Positions 1 through 13,492 of a stretch of DNA of 14,089 nucleotides are shown here, in pieces. Location: positions 1-14,089 of the forward strand of contig JAOZHK010000059.1 of NCBI GenBank assembly GCA_026014905.1, written 5' to 3'. Under the pieces are notes generated by a model. That model searched no databases, was not told where the DNA came from, and saw only the letters and a list, made by a program, of their open reading frames with translations. The stretch is from Candidatus Bathyarchaeota archaeon (lineage in GTDB: Archaea > Thermoproteota > Bathyarchaeia > RBG-16-48-13 > GCA-020355125). A program made the translations under genes and the position numbers. Within the stretch, counting starts at the first letter, position 1. Each line of letters starts with the position of its first letter.

Positions 1-560
1 TTCCTCTTGTAATCCTGAAACTCGAAGCATCCTTAAAGAAACTTGATGTCATAGGCGAGACACTAAAACGAGAAGATAATCAGCTGTTCGAGAGATGTGT
101 CGAGGCACGACTGAAAGGCGATAACGTTCATGCAATGATGTATGCCAACGAGTGTGCAGAAATCCGAAAGATCGCCCTCCACGTAGTCAGTAGTAAATAT
201 GCACTTGAACAAATGGTACTACGATTACACACTGTAACCAAACTTGGAAACATTCTTGTAACTGTGACTCCTGTCGTTGATGTCATTAAAGAAACTCAGA
301 GTCGTTTGGTGGGAATAGTTCCAAGTATCGCCAATAATCTCAATGACGCTAACAAGATATTGGTCGATTCTTTGTCAAAAATGGGCACCAGTGATCTCCG
401 AACCGCAACTCAGAAGCCTCTTGTTTATAGCAGCGGTGCTGAAAAAGTCTTAGAAGAAGCCAAAGCAGCAGCAGAAGATACGATTCGAGAGAAGTTTCCA
501 AAGATTCCAGGAACTTTGAAAGACATCGTTAAGCAAGAAAGTGAAATTTTAACAAATTAA
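1..560 (+). CDS. cdvB: CdvB, ESCRT-III-like cell division protein (5' end missing)
   Basis: The reading frame enters from the left edge (first full codon at base 3) and ends with TAA at 558-560, giving about 185 C-terminal residues. The ATG at 135 is internal. The helical ESCRT-III core is visible: a charged helix with LFERCVEARLKGD, then YANECAEIRKIA, then LEQMVLRL, and a segment ending in VVDVIKETQSRL. This matches the CdvB pattern of TACK archaea, where CdvB polymerises on the membrane at midcell and is disassembled by the Vps4-like ATPase CdvC. Near the C-terminus FPKIPG (495-512) resembles a MIM2 motif, the proline-containing peptide that binds MIT domains. That reading is inference. No cdvA or cdvC lies in the window, so the rest of any cdv cluster would have to be to the left. 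An Asgard Vps2/24-like protein is a less likely alternative. Confidence 0.85.
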   Translation, partial: PLVILKLEASLKKLDVIGETLKREDNQLFERCVEARLKGDNVHAMMYANECAEIRKIALHVVSSKYALEQMVLRLHTVTKLGNILVTVTPVVDVIKETQSRLVGIVPSIANNLNDANKILVDSLSKMGTSDLRTATQKPLVYSSGAEKVLEEAKAAAEDTIREKFPKIPGTLKDIVKQESEILTN

Positions 561-1851: not shown

Positions 1852-2790
1852 ATGACTTCAGACATTAAATGGGGTGCCTTCATATGGCCTGAAGGCCTCA
1901 ATTTCGAAGAAATGAAACAGTTCTGTTTGCGAGCTGAGGAGTTACGCTTTGATCTGTTCCAGACAACCGATCACTTTATGAATATGAGACAGCCTACACG
2001 TCCCGACAGGCATCCTCTTGAAAGCTGGACAACATTAGCAGGGTTAGGTGCAGTCACAACAAAGATTCTCCTCGGTCCTTTGGTCGCGTGCTATGCATAT
2101 CGTGCTCCACCTGTTTTAGCTAAAATGGCAACCACTGTCGATATAATTTCCAATGGACGAGTTATCTTAGGCGTTGGAGCGGGCTGGCATGAAGCTGAGT
2201 TCAAAGCGTATTTTGGACGTTTTCCTCCGGTTCGAGAACGATTACAAGGTCTAGAAGAGACGGTAGAAATCTGTAAAAGCATGTTCAATAACAAATACTC
2301 GACTTATCGTGGAAAACTCTTCTCTGTTAAAGACGCACTCAATTCCCCAGCATCAATTCAACAACCTATTCCTATTATGGTGGGGGGCGGTGGAGAGAAG
2401 GTCACTTTAAAAATCGTGGCTAAGCACGCAGACATGTGTCACTTCTTCGCTAATGATCTCGCAACACTCGATCGAAAGCTTGCAGCATTGAAAAAGCATT
2501 GTAAAACTGTTGGGAGAGATTACAATGAAATCACGAAATGCGTTGGAATTGCCACGATTGTAGGCAACACTACAACTGAAGCTGAAAACAGGTTGGCGCG
2601 TCTCGCAAAGCTCTTCCATATTTCCCCCGATGCGCAGCGAAAGCAATTAGGAAAAGTGTATGGAGCCCCCGATGAGGTCGCTGATTATCTCCAGAATTAC
2701 GTAAGTCGAGGCGTCCAAGTTTTAACGCCGAGATTTTTCTATATGGATTCGATGGAAGCCTTCGCGACAGAGGTTATGCCCAAGGTATAA
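1852..2790 (+). CDS. Luciferase-like (LLM) flavin/F420-dependent oxidoreductase
   Basis: 312 residues, the usual size of a bacterial-luciferase-like monooxygenase/F420-dependent reductase with a TIM-barrel fold. Visible family marks: WGAFIWPEG at the first strand, DLFQTTDHF, the long middle block ending in ISNGRVILGVGAGWHEAEF, and PIMVGGGGEKVTL in the second half. In archaea such proteins often use F420 (for example methylenetetrahydromethanopterin reductase and F420-dependent alcohol dehydrogenase relatives), but FMN is equally possible here. The ATG is preceded by AAGGTG (1838-1843) at 8 nt. The divergent alcohol dehydrogenase suggests a shared redox role, though no substrate is indicated. 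A T-rich terminator follows. Confidence 0.88.
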   Translation: MTSDIKWGAFIWPEGLNFEEMKQFCLRAEELRFDLFQTTDHFMNMRQPTRPDRHPLESWTTLAGLGAVTTKILLGPLVACYAYRAPPVLAKMATTVDIISNGRVILGVGAGWHEAEFKAYFGRFPPVRERLQGLEETVEICKSMFNNKYSTYRGKLFSVKDALNSPASIQQPIPIMVGGGGEKVTLKIVAKHADMCHFFANDLATLDRKLAALKKHCKTVGRDYNEITKCVGIATIVGNTTTEAENRLARLAKLFHISPDAQRKQLGKVYGAPDEVADYLQNYVSRGVQVLTPRFFYMDSMEAFATEVMPKV

Positions 2791-2796
2791 TCGCAT

Positions 2797-2819
2797 TTCT
2801 CTTTTTTCCACCTTTTTTT
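2797..2819 (+). terminator. T-rich terminator after luciferase-like gene
   Basis: TTCTC, six T, CCACC, seven T, beginning 6 nt after the stop at 2790. Poly-T tracts without a required hairpin terminate archaeal RNA polymerase. The same design recurs after the nitroreductase at 7089-7108. Confidence 0.7.
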
Positions 2820-2853
2820 CATCATACTGGAAACCTTTATTCTAAGAACAGAC

Positions 2854-2928
2854 AATAAGTGCTTTACCTCACACTACATAATTTAAGTGAGGAAACCCAA
2901 AGTAGGGTACGTAGCGGTATCCCTTATT
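2854..2928 (+). other. Possible structured RNA or leader element
   Basis: This stretch lies in the 267-nt gap between genes. AATAAG (2854-2859) can pair with CTTATT (2923-2928), closing two inner hairpins: CCTCAC/GTGAGG (2867-2872 with 2887-2892) and ACCC/GGGT (2895-2898 with 2905-2908). The layout is a three-way junction of about 75 nt. No tRNA T-loop, C/D box or known riboswitch core was recognised. Stems are short and could be chance, and the strand is not certain. Confidence 0.25.
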
Positions 2929-3057
2929 ATTCATTGCAGGATGCAGAGCAATTTTTATTAGCATTTTTCAGGTAGAACACTTCTCCAGGATTCAGGTTTT
3001 TGTAGTCTAAATGTAAATAACGAAAAAATAACGTAATACGAACCTATCTTCATAACG

Positions 3058-3870
3058 ATGGATAATCAATTTCGTGTTCATGCAGTTGACTCTAAATTAA
3101 ACCTGTCAGGACACTTTCAGCAGACGCCACGATACGTAGTTCACCTCAATAAAGAAATCGCTAATAAATTAGGTTTCATTGACGGCGATCTTATTGAAGT
3201 ACGTGGGAAAAAAGCGACAGCCGCGAAGGTAATTGCTACGGATAAAGAGAGTCTAGAAGGCGACGCTATTGGATTAAGTAATCTGTTACGAAACAACGCG
3301 AGGGTCACAACGGAGGATTTAGTTACCGTTCATAAAGCGAAATCTCGCTCAGCGGATACAATAGTGTTTGCGCCAATAGGTAAACACCTTAAAAAAAGTG
3401 AATTACTCAAAATCGTCGCAAAAAAAAGCTTCTTGAATGAACCCTTTGTTGAAGGCGATGTAACCTATTTACGATCAAAAATTATGCGCTACCTCTTGGG
3501 TTCAGTGACTTGGCTACGTGTAATTAAGACCGACCCCCAGGGGATAGTGATCGCAACTGACGATACAAATATTGAGATCGTATCAGATCCAATAACAGTC
3601 GGGGATCCAATCTTAGATGATAATCTAGACGAATTACCAGATCTTGAGACCGAAGTTACCAGTGAGGACATAACAGAAACAGACTTGCTAAATACCGAGG
3701 ATTGGGATAAGATAAGTGCCCTCGTGGAACTCGGGCTCTTCCGCAATATCAGCGACGCACTTAGCTTCTTTATTAAAGAAGGAATCAAAGCTAAAAGCGA
3801 TTTATTCGAAAAAAGCCTCTCTGTTTTACACCAGATCAACTCATTAAAAAAACACGTCATCAATCCGTAA
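3058..3870 (+). CDS. Standalone Cdc48/p97 N-domain-like protein with C-terminal helical module
   Basis: 270 residues. Residues 1-95 match the Cdc48 N-terminal double-psi beta-barrel, including the GFIDGDLIEVRGKKATAAKV block and NARVTTEDLVTV. Residues about 98-175 match the second N-subdomain (IVFAPIG, PFVEGDVTYLR, LLGS, then VIKTDPQGIVIATDDTNIEI). The two AAA+ ATPase modules that normally follow are absent, so it cannot unfold substrates by itself. In Cdc48/p97 this domain binds cofactors and substrates. Residues 182-215 are an acidic linker and 216-268 a helical module (ALVELGLFRN, SDALSFFIKEGIKA, then a coiled-coil-like helix). No Shine-Dalgarno precedes the ATG; CGAAAAAATAA at 3021-3031 may be a BRE/TATA with a leaderless start. 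It is first in a run with an unknown gene and a Snf2 translocase. A VAT-like adaptor is an alternative reading. Confidence 0.75.
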   Translation: MDNQFRVHAVDSKLNLSGHFQQTPRYVVHLNKEIANKLGFIDGDLIEVRGKKATAAKVIATDKESLEGDAIGLSNLLRNNARVTTEDLVTVHKAKSRSADTIVFAPIGKHLKKSELLKIVAKKSFLNEPFVEGDVTYLRSKIMRYLLGSVTWLRVIKTDPQGIVIATDDTNIEIVSDPITVGDPILDDNLDELPDLETEVTSEDITETDLLNTEDWDKISALVELGLFRNISDALSFFIKEGIKAKSDLFEKSLSVLHQINSLKKHVINP

Positions 3871-3876
3871 AGCCAC

Positions 3877-3896
3877 TAGCAAGCTAATTCTTGCTA
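3877..3896 (+). other. Perfect 7-bp inverted repeat between genes
   Basis: TAGCAAG and CTTGCTA flank a 6-nt CTAATT loop, 7 nt after the stop of the Cdc48-N-like gene, followed by a run of seven A. There is no T tract on the plus strand, so it is not a typical terminator. It may be an mRNA processing or stability element inside the operon. Confidence 0.35.
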
Positions 3897-3931
3897 CAAA
3901 AAAAGTAGTCAGTTCCAGTATTCGCGTCTAT

Positions 3932-3948
3932 GGAGAAAAGACATATTG
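3932..3948 (+). promoter_or_regulatory. Shine-Dalgarno deciding a TTG start
   Basis: GGAG at 3932-3935 lies 10 nt before a TTG at 3946-3948 (a second TTG follows directly). The ATG at 3930 is in another frame and the next in-frame ATG is codon 12, which has no such site. This supports the TTG start. Confidence 0.55.
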
Positions 3949-4521
3949 TTGGATAGCTCACCACTTCTTCAACTATTCATGGGAAACCCTGCCGTTGGAT
4001 TTCTGAGTCTTCATGAGCATGAAAAAACAGAATATCTAGGTTCTTTACTTATCACAAACTTAGCCGGAACCCCCTTAGAGTTTCGATGCACTCAGCCAAT
4101 TATTCCGGATGCAATACAACGATCTTTGTATGGGACCGGTTTATTAGAATATCTTGGAGTAGAAGTTTGTGGACGCCCTCTCATTCGTTCAGTTAAATTA
4201 AAACCTAAATTTATTTTTATAGAACAACCCTTTCTCATGACGCTCAATGATTACGTATCAAATCCAATCATTTTTGTCCGAGAATTTCGAGGCGAGGAAC
4301 CCCCGTCCCCAATTACACTCAAGTATCCATATCAATCCGACGTCGTTAAACCCCATCAACAAGATCACAACCTTTTGCAGATTGCACAAAAAGATGCAAT
4401 AGAAGCAAAGACGATAGAATTCATCACTCAGCTATCTTACAAATTCAACTTCGTGGAATCGTTTGACCGAATGCGACAAGCAGTACAAAATCTCCATCAA
4501 CTAACCCTGCCCTCTCCCTAG
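3946..4521 (+). CDS. Uncharacterised 191-residue protein between Cdc48-N and Snf2 genes
   Basis: Starts at TTG with a Shine-Dalgarno at 10 nt. I do not recognise a named family. The N-terminal half has a regular pattern: VGFLSL, YLGSLLITNLAGTPLEFRCT, PIIPDAIQRSLYG, LLEYLGVEVCGRPLIRSV. It reads like a small alpha/beta domain in which a strand pair is followed by a conserved-looking Pro-Leu-Glu-Phe-x-Cys-Thr motif. The pattern resembles uncharacterised bacterial proteins I recall, but I cannot confirm this here. The C-terminal third is probably helical (QIAQKDAIEAKTIEFITQL). No signal peptide or membrane segment is seen. The stop is 10 nt before the GTG start of the Snf2 gene, so the two are likely co-translated and may act in one complex. 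Confidence 0.65.
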   Translation: MLDSSPLLQLFMGNPAVGFLSLHEHEKTEYLGSLLITNLAGTPLEFRCTQPIIPDAIQRSLYGTGLLEYLGVEVCGRPLIRSVKLKPKFIFIEQPFLMTLNDYVSNPIIFVREFRGEEPPSPITLKYPYQSDVVKPHQQDHNLLQIAQKDAIEAKTIEFITQLSYKFNFVESFDRMRQAVQNLHQLTLPSP

Positions 4522-4531
4522 AGGCAAAGAG

Positions 4532-6349
4532 GTGGGAACATCGCGCCGAGAGAGCAGTAGGTCTTCCACAGGATCACAGTTGATTAATAACTTTAAAACC
4601 ACAGTCAAACGTGTCTTTCATCAAGCCACCCATCCAGAACGGTTCTGGTCAACTTCAATCACTACTTCCGCTCATCTAACCAACGACACGATATTCACTA
4701 AGAACCAATTCGCCCCCTTTTCGCGTCCCCAAATCTGTTCATATTTCCCTACTATAACCCTATCTTCCGACTTCATTATTGAAGTTGATACCCACATTCA
4801 GCCCCCTTCAATCCAGGATGTTTTTTCACCAATAAATGATCTCACAATAGAGAGTTATGAACTTCAAGATTTCACTCCTTCGCTTGCGATGCGGTTCTTC
4901 CCCGAGAAAACACAAATTCAACCGCACCACCTCGCTCTTCTTAATCTCTTTCCGACACAAACTATTGACTTTCATAAATTACTCGATTTTAATGGAAAAT
5001 CACTATACTCATATCAAAAAGACGGAGTACGTTTTCTCATTGAACACTCTCAAGCTCTGTTAGCTGATGAAATGGGGTTAGGTAAATCCATTCAAGCCAT
5101 TGTTGCACTACGCCTCTTATTTGGCGCAGTGTCAATAACAAACTGCTTGATTCTCTGTCCTAAATCAGTATTGACCGATTGGGCGAACAAATTTGAATCC
5201 TGGGCTCCTGAATTAATGATAACAGAAGTCAGTGGAAGCTCTGCACAACGTCGAACACTCTGGGAGACCCCAAGTCAAATCTATCTAACCACTTATGACA
5301 GTTTAAAAGAAGACATCACCGCACTAACGGAAACTACCACTCTCGAATTTGACCTTGTAATCTTGGATGAAATTCAGCGGATTAAAAACAGTACCACAAA
5401 AACCTTTCACGCTGTGAACCATATTCAAAGTCGTATTCGTTGGGGACTTTCCGGTACGCCTTTAGAGAATCGAGTCGAAGAAATCGTCACCATTTTCCGT
5501 TATCTAAATCCCTCGCTTTTCTCCAGTAGCAACGTCACTGATTCAGATTATGTCAAATCCCTTATTGCACCTTTTACACTTCGCCGAACAAAACAGGCTG
5601 TTTTAACAGAACTACCCACAAAAACCCAAGAAAACGTGCTATTAGATTTATCTCCCAAACAACGGGCAGTCTATAACCTTGTCGAGACACACGGGGTTCT
5701 TGAAATTAAGGAAAAGGGATCTACCGCAACTGCAACTCATATCATGGCATTGATCTCTAAATTGAAACAAATCTGTAATCTTGAACCGGTCTCCGGCGAA
5801 AGCTGTAAACTCGATTATATTGAAGATGTGCTGACAACCCTCAATGAGACAGGAGACAAAATGGTCTTGTTCTCACAATACCCTTTCAAAACGCTTCAAC
5901 TCATCCAACCGCGCCTTCACCGCTTTAACCCATTAATCTATTCGGGGGCTCTCTCGAGTAAACAACGGGCAGCGGTCGTTCAACAATTTGAAGAAGATCC
6001 AACTGTCAGAGTACTCTTAATCTCACTAAAAGCCGGAGGGCTGGGATTAACCTTAACTGCCGCAAATTACGTGGCACACTTTGATTCCTGGTGGAATCCC
6101 GCAACTATGTCACAGGCAGAAGATCGAACTCATCGTATCGGTCAAAAGAAAAATGTAACGGTTCTCTCGTTAATATCCAAACATACTATTGAGGAACGGA
6201 TACAAACAATTCTTGAAGAAAAGAAAATCCTCTTTCAAGAAGTTGTGGGCGACATCTCTGAAGACGGGCTCTCACATCACTTAACAGAACACGAATTATT
6301 CGGTTTATTTGGCCTCCAACGCGCCCATTCTGAGGAAAAACAGATTTAA
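4532..6349 (+). CDS. Snf2-family DNA translocase/helicase-like ATPase
   Basis: 605 residues, GTG start with GAGG (4521-4524) at 7 nt. The Snf2 ATPase core is complete: Walker A DEMGLGKS (179-186), Walker B DEIQ (279-282), motif III LSGTP (306-310), FTLRRTKQAVLTELP, then lobe 2 with YSGALSSKQRA, AGGLGLTLTAANYV, and motif VI QAEDRTHRIGQ (528-538). These proteins translocate on double-stranded DNA and remodel protein-DNA complexes. The core most resembles the archaeal/bacterial SSO1653 group, with DEIQ in place of the usual DEAH/DEAQ. The first about 155 residues are unlike known accessory domains, and there is no zinc-binding SWIM motif, often present before such cores. The protein is third in a run with the Cdc48-N-like and 191-residue genes, suggesting a remodelling complex. 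Confidence 0.9.
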   Translation: MGTSRRESSRSSTGSQLINNFKTTVKRVFHQATHPERFWSTSITTSAHLTNDTIFTKNQFAPFSRPQICSYFPTITLSSDFIIEVDTHIQPPSIQDVFSPINDLTIESYELQDFTPSLAMRFFPEKTQIQPHHLALLNLFPTQTIDFHKLLDFNGKSLYSYQKDGVRFLIEHSQALLADEMGLGKSIQAIVALRLLFGAVSITNCLILCPKSVLTDWANKFESWAPELMITEVSGSSAQRRTLWETPSQIYLTTYDSLKEDITALTETTTLEFDLVILDEIQRIKNSTTKTFHAVNHIQSRIRWGLSGTPLENRVEEIVTIFRYLNPSLFSSSNVTDSDYVKSLIAPFTLRRTKQAVLTELPTKTQENVLLDLSPKQRAVYNLVETHGVLEIKEKGSTATATHIMALISKLKQICNLEPVSGESCKLDYIEDVLTTLNETGDKMVLFSQYPFKTLQLIQPRLHRFNPLIYSGALSSKQRAAVVQQFEEDPTVRVLLISLKAGGLGLTLTAANYVAHFDSWWNPATMSQAEDRTHRIGQKKNVTVLSLISKHTIEERIQTILEEKKILFQEVVGDISEDGLSHHLTEHELFGLFGLQRAHSEEKQI

Positions 6350-6453: not shown

Positions 6454-6495
6454 CATCATGTCCTATATGATTCGTTTAAATGGAAGATGAAACTC

Positions 6496-7065
6496 ATGAC
6501 CTATGAAAGAATAATCAACCGACGCTCAATACGATTTTTTACTTCGACGCCAATACCCAAAGAGATTCTAGTAAACTGTGTTGATGCCGCTCGATTATCC
6601 CCCTCTGGAGCCAATCGCCAGCCTTTAAAATTCATCATCATCCATGATTCTCCTCTTGTCAAACAAACTTTTTCGTTAACTCGATGGGCGGGGCACTTAC
6701 CCGATTACTCTCCCTCACAAGCTGAGATGCCGATGGCTTACATCGCTATTTTACTGGATACAGCCATTCAGCAACGTCCTGGACACGACGCAGGTATTGC
6801 AGCGATGAGTATTTCTCTTGTAGCTGATGAAGCAGGTCTAGGCACCTGTATGCTCGGTTCAGTTAACCGCGAGAAACTTCGTCCCCTACTAAATATCCCC
6901 GATAATCTGGAAATCATAATGCTCGTGGCTTTAGGCTACACCAAAACGAAACCCATTATTGATCAAGTCAAAGATGGCGATATAAAATATTGGCTTGATG
7001 AAGCAGGGAAGCTTCATGTGCCCAAACGGGCTCTCGACGACATTCTCAGCTGGAACACATATTAA
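6496..7065 (+). CDS. Nitroreductase-family FMN-dependent oxidoreductase
   Basis: About 189 residues. FMN-binding marks of the nitroreductase fold are visible: RRSIR near the N-terminus and SPSGANRQP about 30 residues later, then the helix DAGIAAMSISLVADEAGLGTC and LGYTK near the C-terminus. The end, HVPKRALDDI, is typical of a broad nitroreductase subfamily. These enzymes reduce quinones, nitro compounds or other acceptors with NAD(P)H; the physiological substrate is unknown. An in-frame ATG also occurs at 6487, but GGAAG at 6482-6486 lies 9 nt before the ATG at 6496 and abuts the earlier one, so 6496 is preferred. It is convergent with the methyltransferase genes to the right. Confidence 0.88.
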   Translation: MTYERIINRRSIRFFTSTPIPKEILVNCVDAARLSPSGANRQPLKFIIIHDSPLVKQTFSLTRWAGHLPDYSPSQAEMPMAYIAILLDTAIQQRPGHDAGIAAMSISLVADEAGLGTCMLGSVNREKLRPLLNIPDNLEIIMLVALGYTKTKPIIDQVKDGDIKYWLDEAGKLHVPKRALDDILSWNTY

Positions 7066-7088: not shown

Positions 7089-7108
7089 TTCTCTTTCCAC
7101 CCTTTTTT
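7089..7108 (+). terminator. T-rich terminator after nitroreductase
   Basis: TTCTC, three T, CCACCC, six T, starting 24 nt after the stop. The last T bases overlap the stop codon of the convergent methyltransferase gene (7107-7109). Design matches 2797-2819. Confidence 0.65.
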
Positions 7109-8264
7109 ATTGCATCTCCTGTCTTGATATTGGATACTGTCCCATTTCTTTAACAACCCCGATCATCGTTTCAATATTTTGAACCGGTGCACCACTCCGA
7201 GGTGGTCCGCCGCCCGTTGACAAGAGGAATCCTCCATCGACGCCGCCTCTCATAATAGCCTGAACGCAGGCTTCCCGAACTTCCTGAGGGGAACCCGATG
7301 GGAAGGTATATACTGGATCGATATTTCCAAACAGGGCGAGATTATTACCTACTATTGTCCGAATTTCTGACAGATTGGTTTCAGGTCCAACTTGAAAAGC
7401 ATCAAATCCCGCAGCAGGAATAAGATGTACCAAGTGTAAAATATGCCCTTCATTGTGATAGATCCGTAAGGCGCCATTAAATGCCTTATTGACACGTTGA
7501 ACAAAGGGAACCCAAAATTCTTGGGCTTGAGATTCTGACATAAACGTGGTGCAGTGATCAGCGATCGTAAGTTTGGTTATCTTTCCCATCGCCGTCTCAA
7601 TGAGTTTAAGCGCATTGATCACATATTCTGTGGTGATCTCGCAGATTGCATGAACTTTATCAGGCCAAAGCCGCATACCAATAAGAAATTGTTGATATGA
7701 CAGGAGACCTTGATCAACAACATCTTCAACACATCGAGTGGACGCCCACCCCTTCATGCCAGCCGCAACATGATCCTCGAGTCCCGCATATGTTTCGGCT
7801 TCAATCTGCAATTGGAGACTTACATTTTCAAGAGCTTGTTGCATCGCCGGCTCATCTTGAAGCTTGGGTACAAAAAGATCTCGTACATCGAACTCGGCTA
7901 AATTTTGAATCAATGGCTGAGAATAGGCATAGCCACCTTTACTAGATTCTTTGAGGACAACAGGTATGCGAAGATGCTGACCTAAAATTGGTGCGAGATG
8001 CACTGACTTATCTCCGTGACCACCACTGCCAATCGAGGTACATACACAGATCTCTGGAAATCGCTTCGCAAAATTCACGTTAAATTCGATAGCCTTCCGA
8101 ATCCGCGTACTTCTATCCCATTTTGGATAGTGTGGATTAGCGCGCCCCGCACTCTCCATTAACTCGGACACACCTTGAACAGGAAAAGGAGGAATGGCAA
8201 TGGGAACCTGATCGGGTTGCTTACAAAAATATGCTAATAACATCCGCTCGTAGGGTGATAACAT
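7107..8264 (-). CDS. UroD-family corrinoid-linked methyltransferase
   Basis: 385 residues with the uroporphyrinogen decarboxylase TIM-barrel fold, the fold of MtaA/MtbA/CmuA methyltransferases, which move a methyl group between a corrinoid protein and an acceptor such as coenzyme M or tetrahydrofolate. LFGNIDPV (311-318) is a typical UroD-fold signature. The start codon is directly next to the stop of the corrinoid protein gene (zero spacing), so the two are surely partners; a GGCGGG lies 8 nt upstream as a ribosome-binding candidate. At the usual zinc site (His-x-Cys, then a Gly-Cys near the C-terminus) it has HNEG (270-273) and STGGG (349-353), so both Cys ligands are missing. It may therefore use a different metal set or acceptor. 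True heme-pathway HemE is unlikely given the neighbour. Confidence 0.85.
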   Translation of the reverse strand: MLSPYERMLLAYFCKQPDQVPIAIPPFPVQGVSELMESAGRANPHYPKWDRSTRIRKAIEFNVNFAKRFPEICVCTSIGSGGHGDKSVHLAPILGQHLRIPVVLKESSKGGYAYSQPLIQNLAEFDVRDLFVPKLQDEPAMQQALENVSLQLQIEAETYAGLEDHVAAGMKGWASTRCVEDVVDQGLLSYQQFLIGMRLWPDKVHAICEITTEYVINALKLIETAMGKITKLTIADHCTTFMSESQAQEFWVPFVQRVNKAFNGALRIYHNEGHILHLVHLIPAAGFDAFQVGPETNLSEIRTIVGNNLALFGNIDPVYTFPSGSPQEVREACVQAIMRGGVDGGFLLSTGGGPPRSGAPVQNIETMIGVVKEMGQYPISRQEMQ

Positions 8265-8924
8265 CTATTGTTCCCGCCGTTTTTGGGTCATAAACTTGTT
8301 TGCTGTGACGACGCCGTCCATGGCGGTCTCACAGTACGCGTCCGCTCCATATTGCTCCGCGGTCTGTTGACTGGTCGGTCTTCCCCCGATCATAATGTAA
8401 ACTTGTTTTCGAAGACCTGTGCATTCCAGTGCGTCAATAACTTCTCCGATACCTGGCATAGTAGTTAGGAGGAGTGCGGATAACGCAACGATATCGGGTT
8501 GAAAGTCACGGACTTTTTGTACGAACACGTCAGGGGATACATCTTCGCCTATGTCGTACACTTCGTAGCCAGCCGCTTGAAGTAACGAGATCGCGATATT
8601 TTTTCCGATGAAATGAAAGTCTCCTTCCACGGTTCCAAAGACAATTTTTCCCTGCAGCGTGTCTTCACCCACCTCTTCTTTGAGTTTCTCGCTGATTTCA
8701 GGCATGACTTGTTCCATTATATATGCGGCCACCATCAATTCAGCAAGAAAGTATTGTTGATTAGCAAAGAGTTCACCCACTTGATCTAAGCCTTTTGACA
8801 GACCTTTCTCAAGAATTGTTCGCGCAGGGATTCCGGCTTGAACAGCTTGTTTTGTGAGCGCCCTCGTGGTATCAAGATCGAGCCGAGTGAATGCCTCAAT
8901 AATCTCAAGCAATATGGTCGACAA
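8265..8924 (-). CDS. Methyltransferase corrinoid protein (B12-binding)
   Basis: 219 residues, matching MtaC/MtbC/MtmC-type proteins, which carry the methyl group on cobalamin between two methyltransferases. Residues 1-88 form the helical cap (GLDQVGELFANQQYFLAELM), and 93-215 the Rossmann-like B12 domain. The cobalt-ligand motif D102-x-H104-x-x-G107 is present, in the form GDFHFIGKN where the family usually has DIHDIGKN or similar. SALLLTT (149-155) and IGGRP (179-183) follow at the expected places. TTG is the start: a TAA stop sits in frame immediately upstream and no Met lies near. No clear Shine-Dalgarno is seen. The downstream UroD methyltransferase abuts it. The first methyltransferase (MtaB/MttB type) that would load the corrinoid is not in the window. 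Confidence 0.92.
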   Translation of the reverse strand: MSTILLEIIEAFTRLDLDTTRALTKQAVQAGIPARTILEKGLSKGLDQVGELFANQQYFLAELMVAAYIMEQVMPEISEKLKEEVGEDTLQGKIVFGTVEGDFHFIGKNIAISLLQAAGYEVYDIGEDVSPDVFVQKVRDFQPDIVALSALLLTTMPGIGEVIDALECTGLRKQVYIMIGGRPTSQQTAEQYGADAYCETAMDGVVTANKFMTQKRREQ

Positions 8925-11705: not shown

Positions 11706-11975
11706 CTAACATTTCATTTTCGTTTTCAACTTGATAAGAGCGGACTTAGCGTCATGAGTTAATCGTTTTATGGCTTTTTCTCGTTGCATGGCTTCACTGC
11801 GGGAATGGAAGCTTTCCATGTATACAATCTGCTTGGGCTTATTCATTTGTGTGTATCTCGCCCCTTTACCACTCCAATGCTGGCAGAGCCGCGTTTTTAA
11901 GTCACTCGTATACCCCGTGTAATAGCTTCCATCTTGACATAACAGGACATATACCTGATATAGTATATTCGACAA
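11706..11975 (-). CDS. GIY-YIG nuclease superfamily small protein
   Basis: 89 residues, the size of YhbQ/UPF0213-like proteins made only of the GIY-YIG domain. The two Tyr motifs appear as VYV (8-10) and YTG (19-21), followed by the catalytic-type Arg R29 in LKTRLCQHWSGKGARYT and by E61 and E66 in a helix. Such proteins have nuclease-like folds and are linked to DNA repair or nucleic acid processing; activity of this one is untested. Start is TTG at 11975, 2 nt after the flavin reductase stop, so it is coupled to that gene. No good Shine-Dalgarno is visible. The C-terminus is strongly basic (Lys-rich). Confidence 0.88.
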   Translation of the reverse strand: MSNILYQVYVLLCQDGSYYTGYTSDLKTRLCQHWSGKGARYTQMNKPKQIVYMESFHSRSEAMQREKAIKRLTHDAKSALIKLKTKMKC

Positions 11976-13159: not shown

Positions 13160-13492
13160 CTAAACTGGTGGATACTCCTTGAAGATGTTGGTGCTTTCTA
13201 ACTCAAATATGGGGATATGGGCGCTCTGACCATCTGAACTAAATTGATCACTATACGTGATTTCCCCCCGGTAACGATTAAAAACAACGTATTTTTCTTC
13301 GATTCGACTATCTAGATCGGCAAAATATACCATTTTTCCCCCGCCAAAACTAGTAATTTGGACAAAATAGACGTGTTTACCCGATGTATTAACATGGAAC
13401 AGAAATGGCGTGGGAGACATGCCCACGAACCGTACTAAATCATCAAATCTACGCAATTTTGCGTAGGTCAGAGCTTGACTCATATGAATCAT
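13160..13492 (-). CDS. Uncharacterised 110-residue protein
   Basis: 110 residues from the ATG at 13492 (or 107 from 13483). I do not recognise a family. It is soluble-looking, with no signal peptide or membrane helix. A short helical start (SQALTYAKLRRFDDLVRFVG) is followed by a strand-rich body: FLFHVNTSGKHVYFVQI, GGGKMVYFADL, EEKYVVFNRYRGEITYSD, HIPIFELE. The run of alternating hydrophobic strands suggests a small beta barrel or beta sandwich. It is between the TFB gene and the flavin reductases on the same strand. An 18-nt dyad (13449-13466) lies in its first codons. TTTTAAAA overlaps the start, too close to serve as its own TATA box. Confidence 0.6.
   Translation of the reverse strand: MIHMSQALTYAKLRRFDDLVRFVGMSPTPFLFHVNTSGKHVYFVQITSFGGGKMVYFADLDSRIEEKYVVFNRYRGEITYSDQFSSDGQSAHIPIFELESTNIFKEYPPV
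13449..13466. repeat. Perfect 8-bp inverted repeat near a gene start
   Basis: CTACGCAA and TTGCGTAG separated by TT. It lies about 27 to 44 nt into the unknown 110-residue gene. It could be an operator-like dyad or an mRNA hairpin affecting early translation, or it may only reflect coding sequence. Confidence 0.4.

Follow-up and report, generated by a model that had tools for sequence, protein, structure and literature searches.

Pairing of a Snf2-family translocase gene with an RNase H-like partner gene, and a stand-alone Cdc48 N-domain gene upstream, in Bathyarchaeota

Do three consecutive genes of a Candidatus Bathyarchaeota archaeon, coding for a Cdc48 N-domain fold, a small protein and a Snf2 motor, encode one remodelling complex, as a preliminary description of the DNA proposed? 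Snf2 family motors translocate on double-stranded DNA and are often contained in defence systems; to our knowledge, the roles and partners of their archaeal members are poorly known. The stretch analysed here (the window) comprises 14,089 nt of contig JAOZHK010000059.1 (assembly GCA_026014905.1), read on the forward strand. The ORF coordinates confirm three genes in one direction, and the 10-nt gap reported between the second and third is present. We refer to the Cdc48-N protein, the 191-aa middle protein and the Snf2 translocase as the products of genes 1, 2 and 3:

3012..3057, forward strand: AT-rich candidate promoter of gene 1 itself (upstream stretches compared by eye)
3058..3870, forward strand: gene 1, stand-alone Cdc48 N-domain protein, 270 aa (Pfam, model, fold matches, alignment of 30)
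3946..4521, forward strand: gene 2, RNase H-like (endonuclease V-like) protein, 191 aa (model, Foldseek, VIA-align, column counts)
4532..6349, forward strand: gene 3, Snf2-family translocase, 605 aa (Pfam, structure search, motifs, alignment with locus L001)

Gene 3 contains a complete Snf2 core, in agreement with the earlier assignment. Pfam places SNF2-rel_dom at residues 161-416 and Helicase_C at 426-537, and motifs I-VI can be read in the two RecA lobes. The nearest solved structure is the Sulfolobus Snf2/Rad54-family helicase 1z63 (E 1.3e-80), with which the Snf2 core is common, while gene 3 differs in having its own N-terminal region, of which about 150 aa are poorly conserved in the alignment with L001, and an adjacent partner gene.

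The gene 1 product had been described as a Cdc48-N fold without AAA+ modules, with failure to fold in that way in a model named as the finding against it, and Pfam (CDC48_N and CDC48_2), the structure model and the fold matches all bear this out. As in the Cdc48/VAT ATPases, the N domain has two subdomains, a double-psi barrel half at about 25-95 and a second half at about 105-180. Neither of the two AAA modules expected to follow it in Cdc48/VAT is found in the 270-aa product by ORF reading or Pfam; the model instead places an acidic low-confidence linker at 184-211 and a helical region at 213-267. Compared with 26 true Cdc48 N domains, the protein has an insert and a net charge of about +2.4 in its second half, as against -2.1, and lacks D1. 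The C-terminal helices match no known domain: the tail of the window copy has no Pfam match, and a PDB comparison gave nothing better than 0.29. A match to ACOX was seen in 1/6 tails (0.015) and was taken as chance. We take the gene 1 product to be a paralogue of the substrate- and cofactor-binding domain of Cdc48 in which the AAA rings have given way to an acidic linker followed by a helical tail.

Ufd1 offers a close parallel, since its UT3 domain and Cdc48 N have a common architecture, and it is an ATPase-less protein of this type able to serve Cdc48 (PMC4192671, from the available part of the text). Gene 1 resembles this eukaryotic adaptor in its Cdc48-N-type fold without ATPase and differs in its neighbour, which is Snf2 where that of Ufd1 is Npl4. 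When solved structures were searched by sequence, on two occasions, Ufd1 was absent among the matches listed (best 60 of 82 and best 60 of 91). A different VAT-N-like domain occurs on a haloarchaeal Vps4-like ATPase, and the available text of that report describes no stand-alone one (PMC10936438); the available parts of PMC6393860 and PMC5070193 likewise hold nothing on a stand-alone N domain.

Gene 2, previously listed as unrecognised, turned out to have an RNase H-like fold of the endonuclease V (EndoV) type. The model is of high confidence (pLDDT 89, pTM 0.86), and Foldseek and VIA-align match it to EndoV, Endo_dU, PIWI, UvrC and NurA, with EndoV and Endo_dU on top. No Pfam family is matched at E<=1, thus neither Endo_dU (PF01949) nor NurA (PF09376). 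Profile comparison with hhalign gave a weak match to EndoV (probability 3.8%, P 0.011), a non-significant one to Endo_dU (0.6%, P 0.1) and 0.3%, P 0.2 for NurA, the family sets covering 25/25, 11/25 and 18/25 loci, respectively. We therefore do not retain any of the three as a sequence relative, although this test of kinship is weak both ways because control pairs sharing the fold scored no better (NurA-EndoV P 0.028, Endo_dU-EndoV P 0.55).

In the hhalign alignment, which sets the register and is itself weak, the first-strand catalytic Asp of EndoV falls on gene 2 position 21. This residue is Ser21 in the window and Asp in 5/49 rows (P0088, P0108, P0145, P0154 and P0155), which sets gene 2 apart from EndoV, Endo_dU (DUF99), NurA and PIWI, as do the missing Pfam match and the pairing of its gene with Snf2. 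An acid at the second site, position 93, is present in 24/49 rows, and none of the 49 has acids at both positions. These columns suggest that nuclease activity has probably been lost. The missing Asp is not proof of inactivity, since Endo_dU cleaves DNA without the canonical (full DEDD) tetrad and depends on the last H/D/R residue of its final helix, according to the available text of PMC11585767. Genes 2 and 3 might accordingly be an active DNA-repair module, in which the Snf2 motor delivers or clears a non-canonical nuclease of the Endo_dU/EndoV type. The top fold matches are in line with such a module, as are the five relatives retaining Asp21 and the conservation of E171 (47/49 rows) and R175 (48/49) near the last helix together with the invariant residues P43, F46, R47, T49, Q58 and G63. 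Yet no row combines both acids, Endo_dU is supported neither by Pfam nor by hhalign, and the two other genomes that carry gene 2 (G001 and G218, see below) already possess Endo_dU and EndoV genes. On this evidence we regard an active repair module as rather unlikely and prefer an RNase H-like partner without a canonical nuclease site.

To see how the three genes are distributed we used 256 genomes of the class of G001 (Bathyarchaeota); their completeness is not given, so that absences are soft. Gene 2 (E<=0.001) is found in two of them, G001 and G218, and a trio-type Snf2 (E<=1e-100; next best 1.3e-77) in the same two, adjacent to it. With the window counted, genes 2 and 3 are thus neighbours in 3/3 loci, and the pair is known from these three only. 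Stand-alone Cdc48-N proteins (E<=1e-100) occur in 4/256 genomes, G001-G004. Among 250 Thermoproteota genomes (E<=1e-40) only G001 has one. A search with gene 1 found five genome loci, three in Bathyarchaeota, one in Thermoproteota and one in Rhizobiales (34% match).

The complete trio is present in a second organism. L001, the locus in G001, has the same order as the window, with Cdc48-N at 1483-2292, gene 2 at 2474-3067 and Snf2 at 3064-4977, at identities of 54%, 43% and, for residues 124-603 of Snf2, 65%. Fourteen other genes of the window were tested and have no match in L001, so the order is kept although the flanks are unrelated. The arrangement is not fixed, however. G003 and G004 have the stand-alone Cdc48-N protein with gene 2 not found in the genome (again with completeness not given); in G004 nothing matches Snf2, and the Snf2 of G003 belongs to another clade and lies elsewhere. 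In G218 gene 2 adjoins Snf2 and no Cdc48-N gene lies within the 19 kb read; the best gene 1 match of this genome (1.4e-27) is inside a 723-aa frame, with two weaker matches besides. G002 is uninformative on the trio, because its contig stops 9 nt past the Cdc48-N gene; the protein encoded there and its G001 counterpart are 90% identical. Genes 2 and 3 were not found elsewhere in G002. Hence the proposed trio holds as a recurring gene order and not as a constant set, and the scattering of relatives that had been named as the finding against it is seen for gene 1, which is separable, and not for the pair of genes 2 and 3.

Shorter frames of G024, G014 and G220 that match Cdc48-N were considered as further stand-alone proteins and rejected as ordinary Cdc48, because the DNA shows AAA sequence following in each, the frame being cut short by a frame break, a masked stretch or a contig end. 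This reading covers the listed gene 1 matches; two of the three in G218 are among the weaker ones beyond. In G004 the C-terminal tail typical of this Cdc48-N family occurs once by itself (L053, 6925-7233); the matched stretch contains an in-frame stop, and this is perhaps a decayed second copy. Close to the Cdc48-N gene of G002 lies a 60% relative (L002, 1339-1911) of the window nitroreductase (6487-7065), and in G218 a gene facing Snf2 (L049, 11555-12301) has a weak eRF1 domain 3 match under the cut-off.

Metagenomic clusters provide an indirect view of linkage. For two cluster pairs the longest contig is of equal size (P0018/P0067, 15134; P0031/P0064, 3993). With lengths jittered by 10% and 48 by 38 rows, the 38 gene 2 rows being the best 38 of 109, two or more such coincidences have a chance probability of 0.022 and one over 10 kb of 0.002. 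With all 109 gene 2 rows a third equal size of 1543 appears (P0020/P0096), and the corresponding values are 0.030 for three or more and 0.004 for one over 10 kb. The equal sizes lend indirect support to the genes travelling together, the placement of paired proteins on one contig being putative.

Spacing and upstream sequences also distinguish gene 1 from the pair. Genes 2 and 3 are separated by 10 nt in the window and 17 nt in G218 and overlap by 4 nt in L001, and this tight spacing suggests that they are jointly translated. Genes 1 and 2 are 75 nt apart in the window and 181 nt in L001. A TATAAT precedes the Cdc48-N ATG by 30-31 nt in L001-L003, L001 and L002 being near-identical there, and suggests a promoter belonging to gene 1; by eye, neither the window nor L004 shows one as clear. 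In L001, gene 2 is preceded at about 89 nt by a TTTAAATA element. The upstream sequences and the tight junction of the second and third genes both speak for a gene 2-3 core to which gene 1 is more loosely attached.

The Cdc48-N gene might then be independent of the pair, lying upstream by chance and working by itself, for instance by serving as a decoy or by competing for ligands of the Cdc48 in the same cell, a reading compatible with a gene 2-3 core. Its occurrence in G003 and G004, where gene 2 was not found in the genome and Snf2 does not adjoin it, its possible promoter and wider spacing, and the full-length Cdc48 frame also present in G002-G004 all fit such independence. The order kept between unrelated flanks and the cluster pairs of equal contig size speak against it, and we consider it a serious possibility that nevertheless falls short of an even chance.

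Our preferred reading, held tentatively and at just under an even chance, is a two-protein core of a Snf2 double-stranded DNA translocase and an EndoV/RNase H-like partner without a canonical nuclease site, most likely a DNA-binding, targeting or regulatory subunit, with the upstream Cdc48-N protein as an accessory kept by some lineages. The motor would move along double-stranded DNA in a probable physical complex with the gene 2 product, which would position or regulate it and may target it to DNA. Lineages that have the Cdc48-N protein may use it as an adaptor that binds protein targets; the link of gene 1 to Cdc48 and the proteasome suggested in the preliminary description is speculation. 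A bolder version, to which we assign only a small chance, is an undescribed prokaryotic DNA remodeller of archaea and bacteria, built from a Snf2 motor and a dedicated pseudo-EndoV subunit, to which some Bathyarchaeia added a Ufd1-like Cdc48-N adaptor handing proteins stripped from DNA to Cdc48. A search of the open-access literature, whose coverage excludes subscription papers, listed no paper whose title or opening abstract lines concern this gene set. An adjacent RNase H-like partner lacking the canonical active site would give a concrete handle on the roles and partners of archaeal Snf2 motors. If real, a Cdc48-N fold that has been separated from its ATPase and kept next to a DNA motor would provide archaea with a simple parallel to the way in which eukaryotes couple DNA-bound proteins to Cdc48.

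Beyond the class, the gene 2 profile reaches named proteins of Chloroflexota and Dehalococcoidales. G001 gives the sole convincing match in 300 Thermoproteota genomes, where two further matches (E ~8e-4) cover positions 87-186 with an in-frame stop. None was found in 398 Pseudomonadota genomes, a set without any known-matching genome that therefore shows little.

A defence system built around the Snf2 motor is very improbable. Motors of this family are common in defence and gene 3 does score against the ZorD, DpdE and DrmD models, but its scores fall far short of the curated NCBIfam cut-offs for defence models. At E<=0.01 neither gene 1 nor gene 2 matches a PADLOC model, so the partners of Zorya, Dpd or DISARM are not seen in them. 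A weak match of phrog_12007 (PHROG) to gene 1 residues 155-252 (4e-4) prompted a scan of viral contigs, in which no gene 1 relatives were found; gene 2 has none there either, and its bacterial relatives used as queries found none in plasmids (P0132, P0150) or phages (P0120). The window flanks consist of metabolic, ribosomal and transcription genes. TFIIB repeats (Pfam), L15/L27A- and L13-family ribosomal proteins and the CdvB-like fragment described below mark the DNA as archaeal.

Several other genes of the window deserve mention. A CdvB-family ESCRT-III protein is represented by its C-terminal part 2.5 kb upstream of the trio (3-560, forward strand; NCBIfam CdvB1/B2 E 5.8e-38, under the curated cut-off). 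A 110-aa ORF without Pfam match at E<=0.001 adjoins TFB (13160-13492, reverse strand), and a small GIY-YIG domain protein (11706-11975, reverse strand, E 3.9e-17) has ribosomal L13 on one side and a flavin reductase-like gene on the other. At 7107-8924 on the reverse strand, a URO-D family protein adjoins a B12-binding protein, an arrangement resembling a corrinoid methyltransferase pair.
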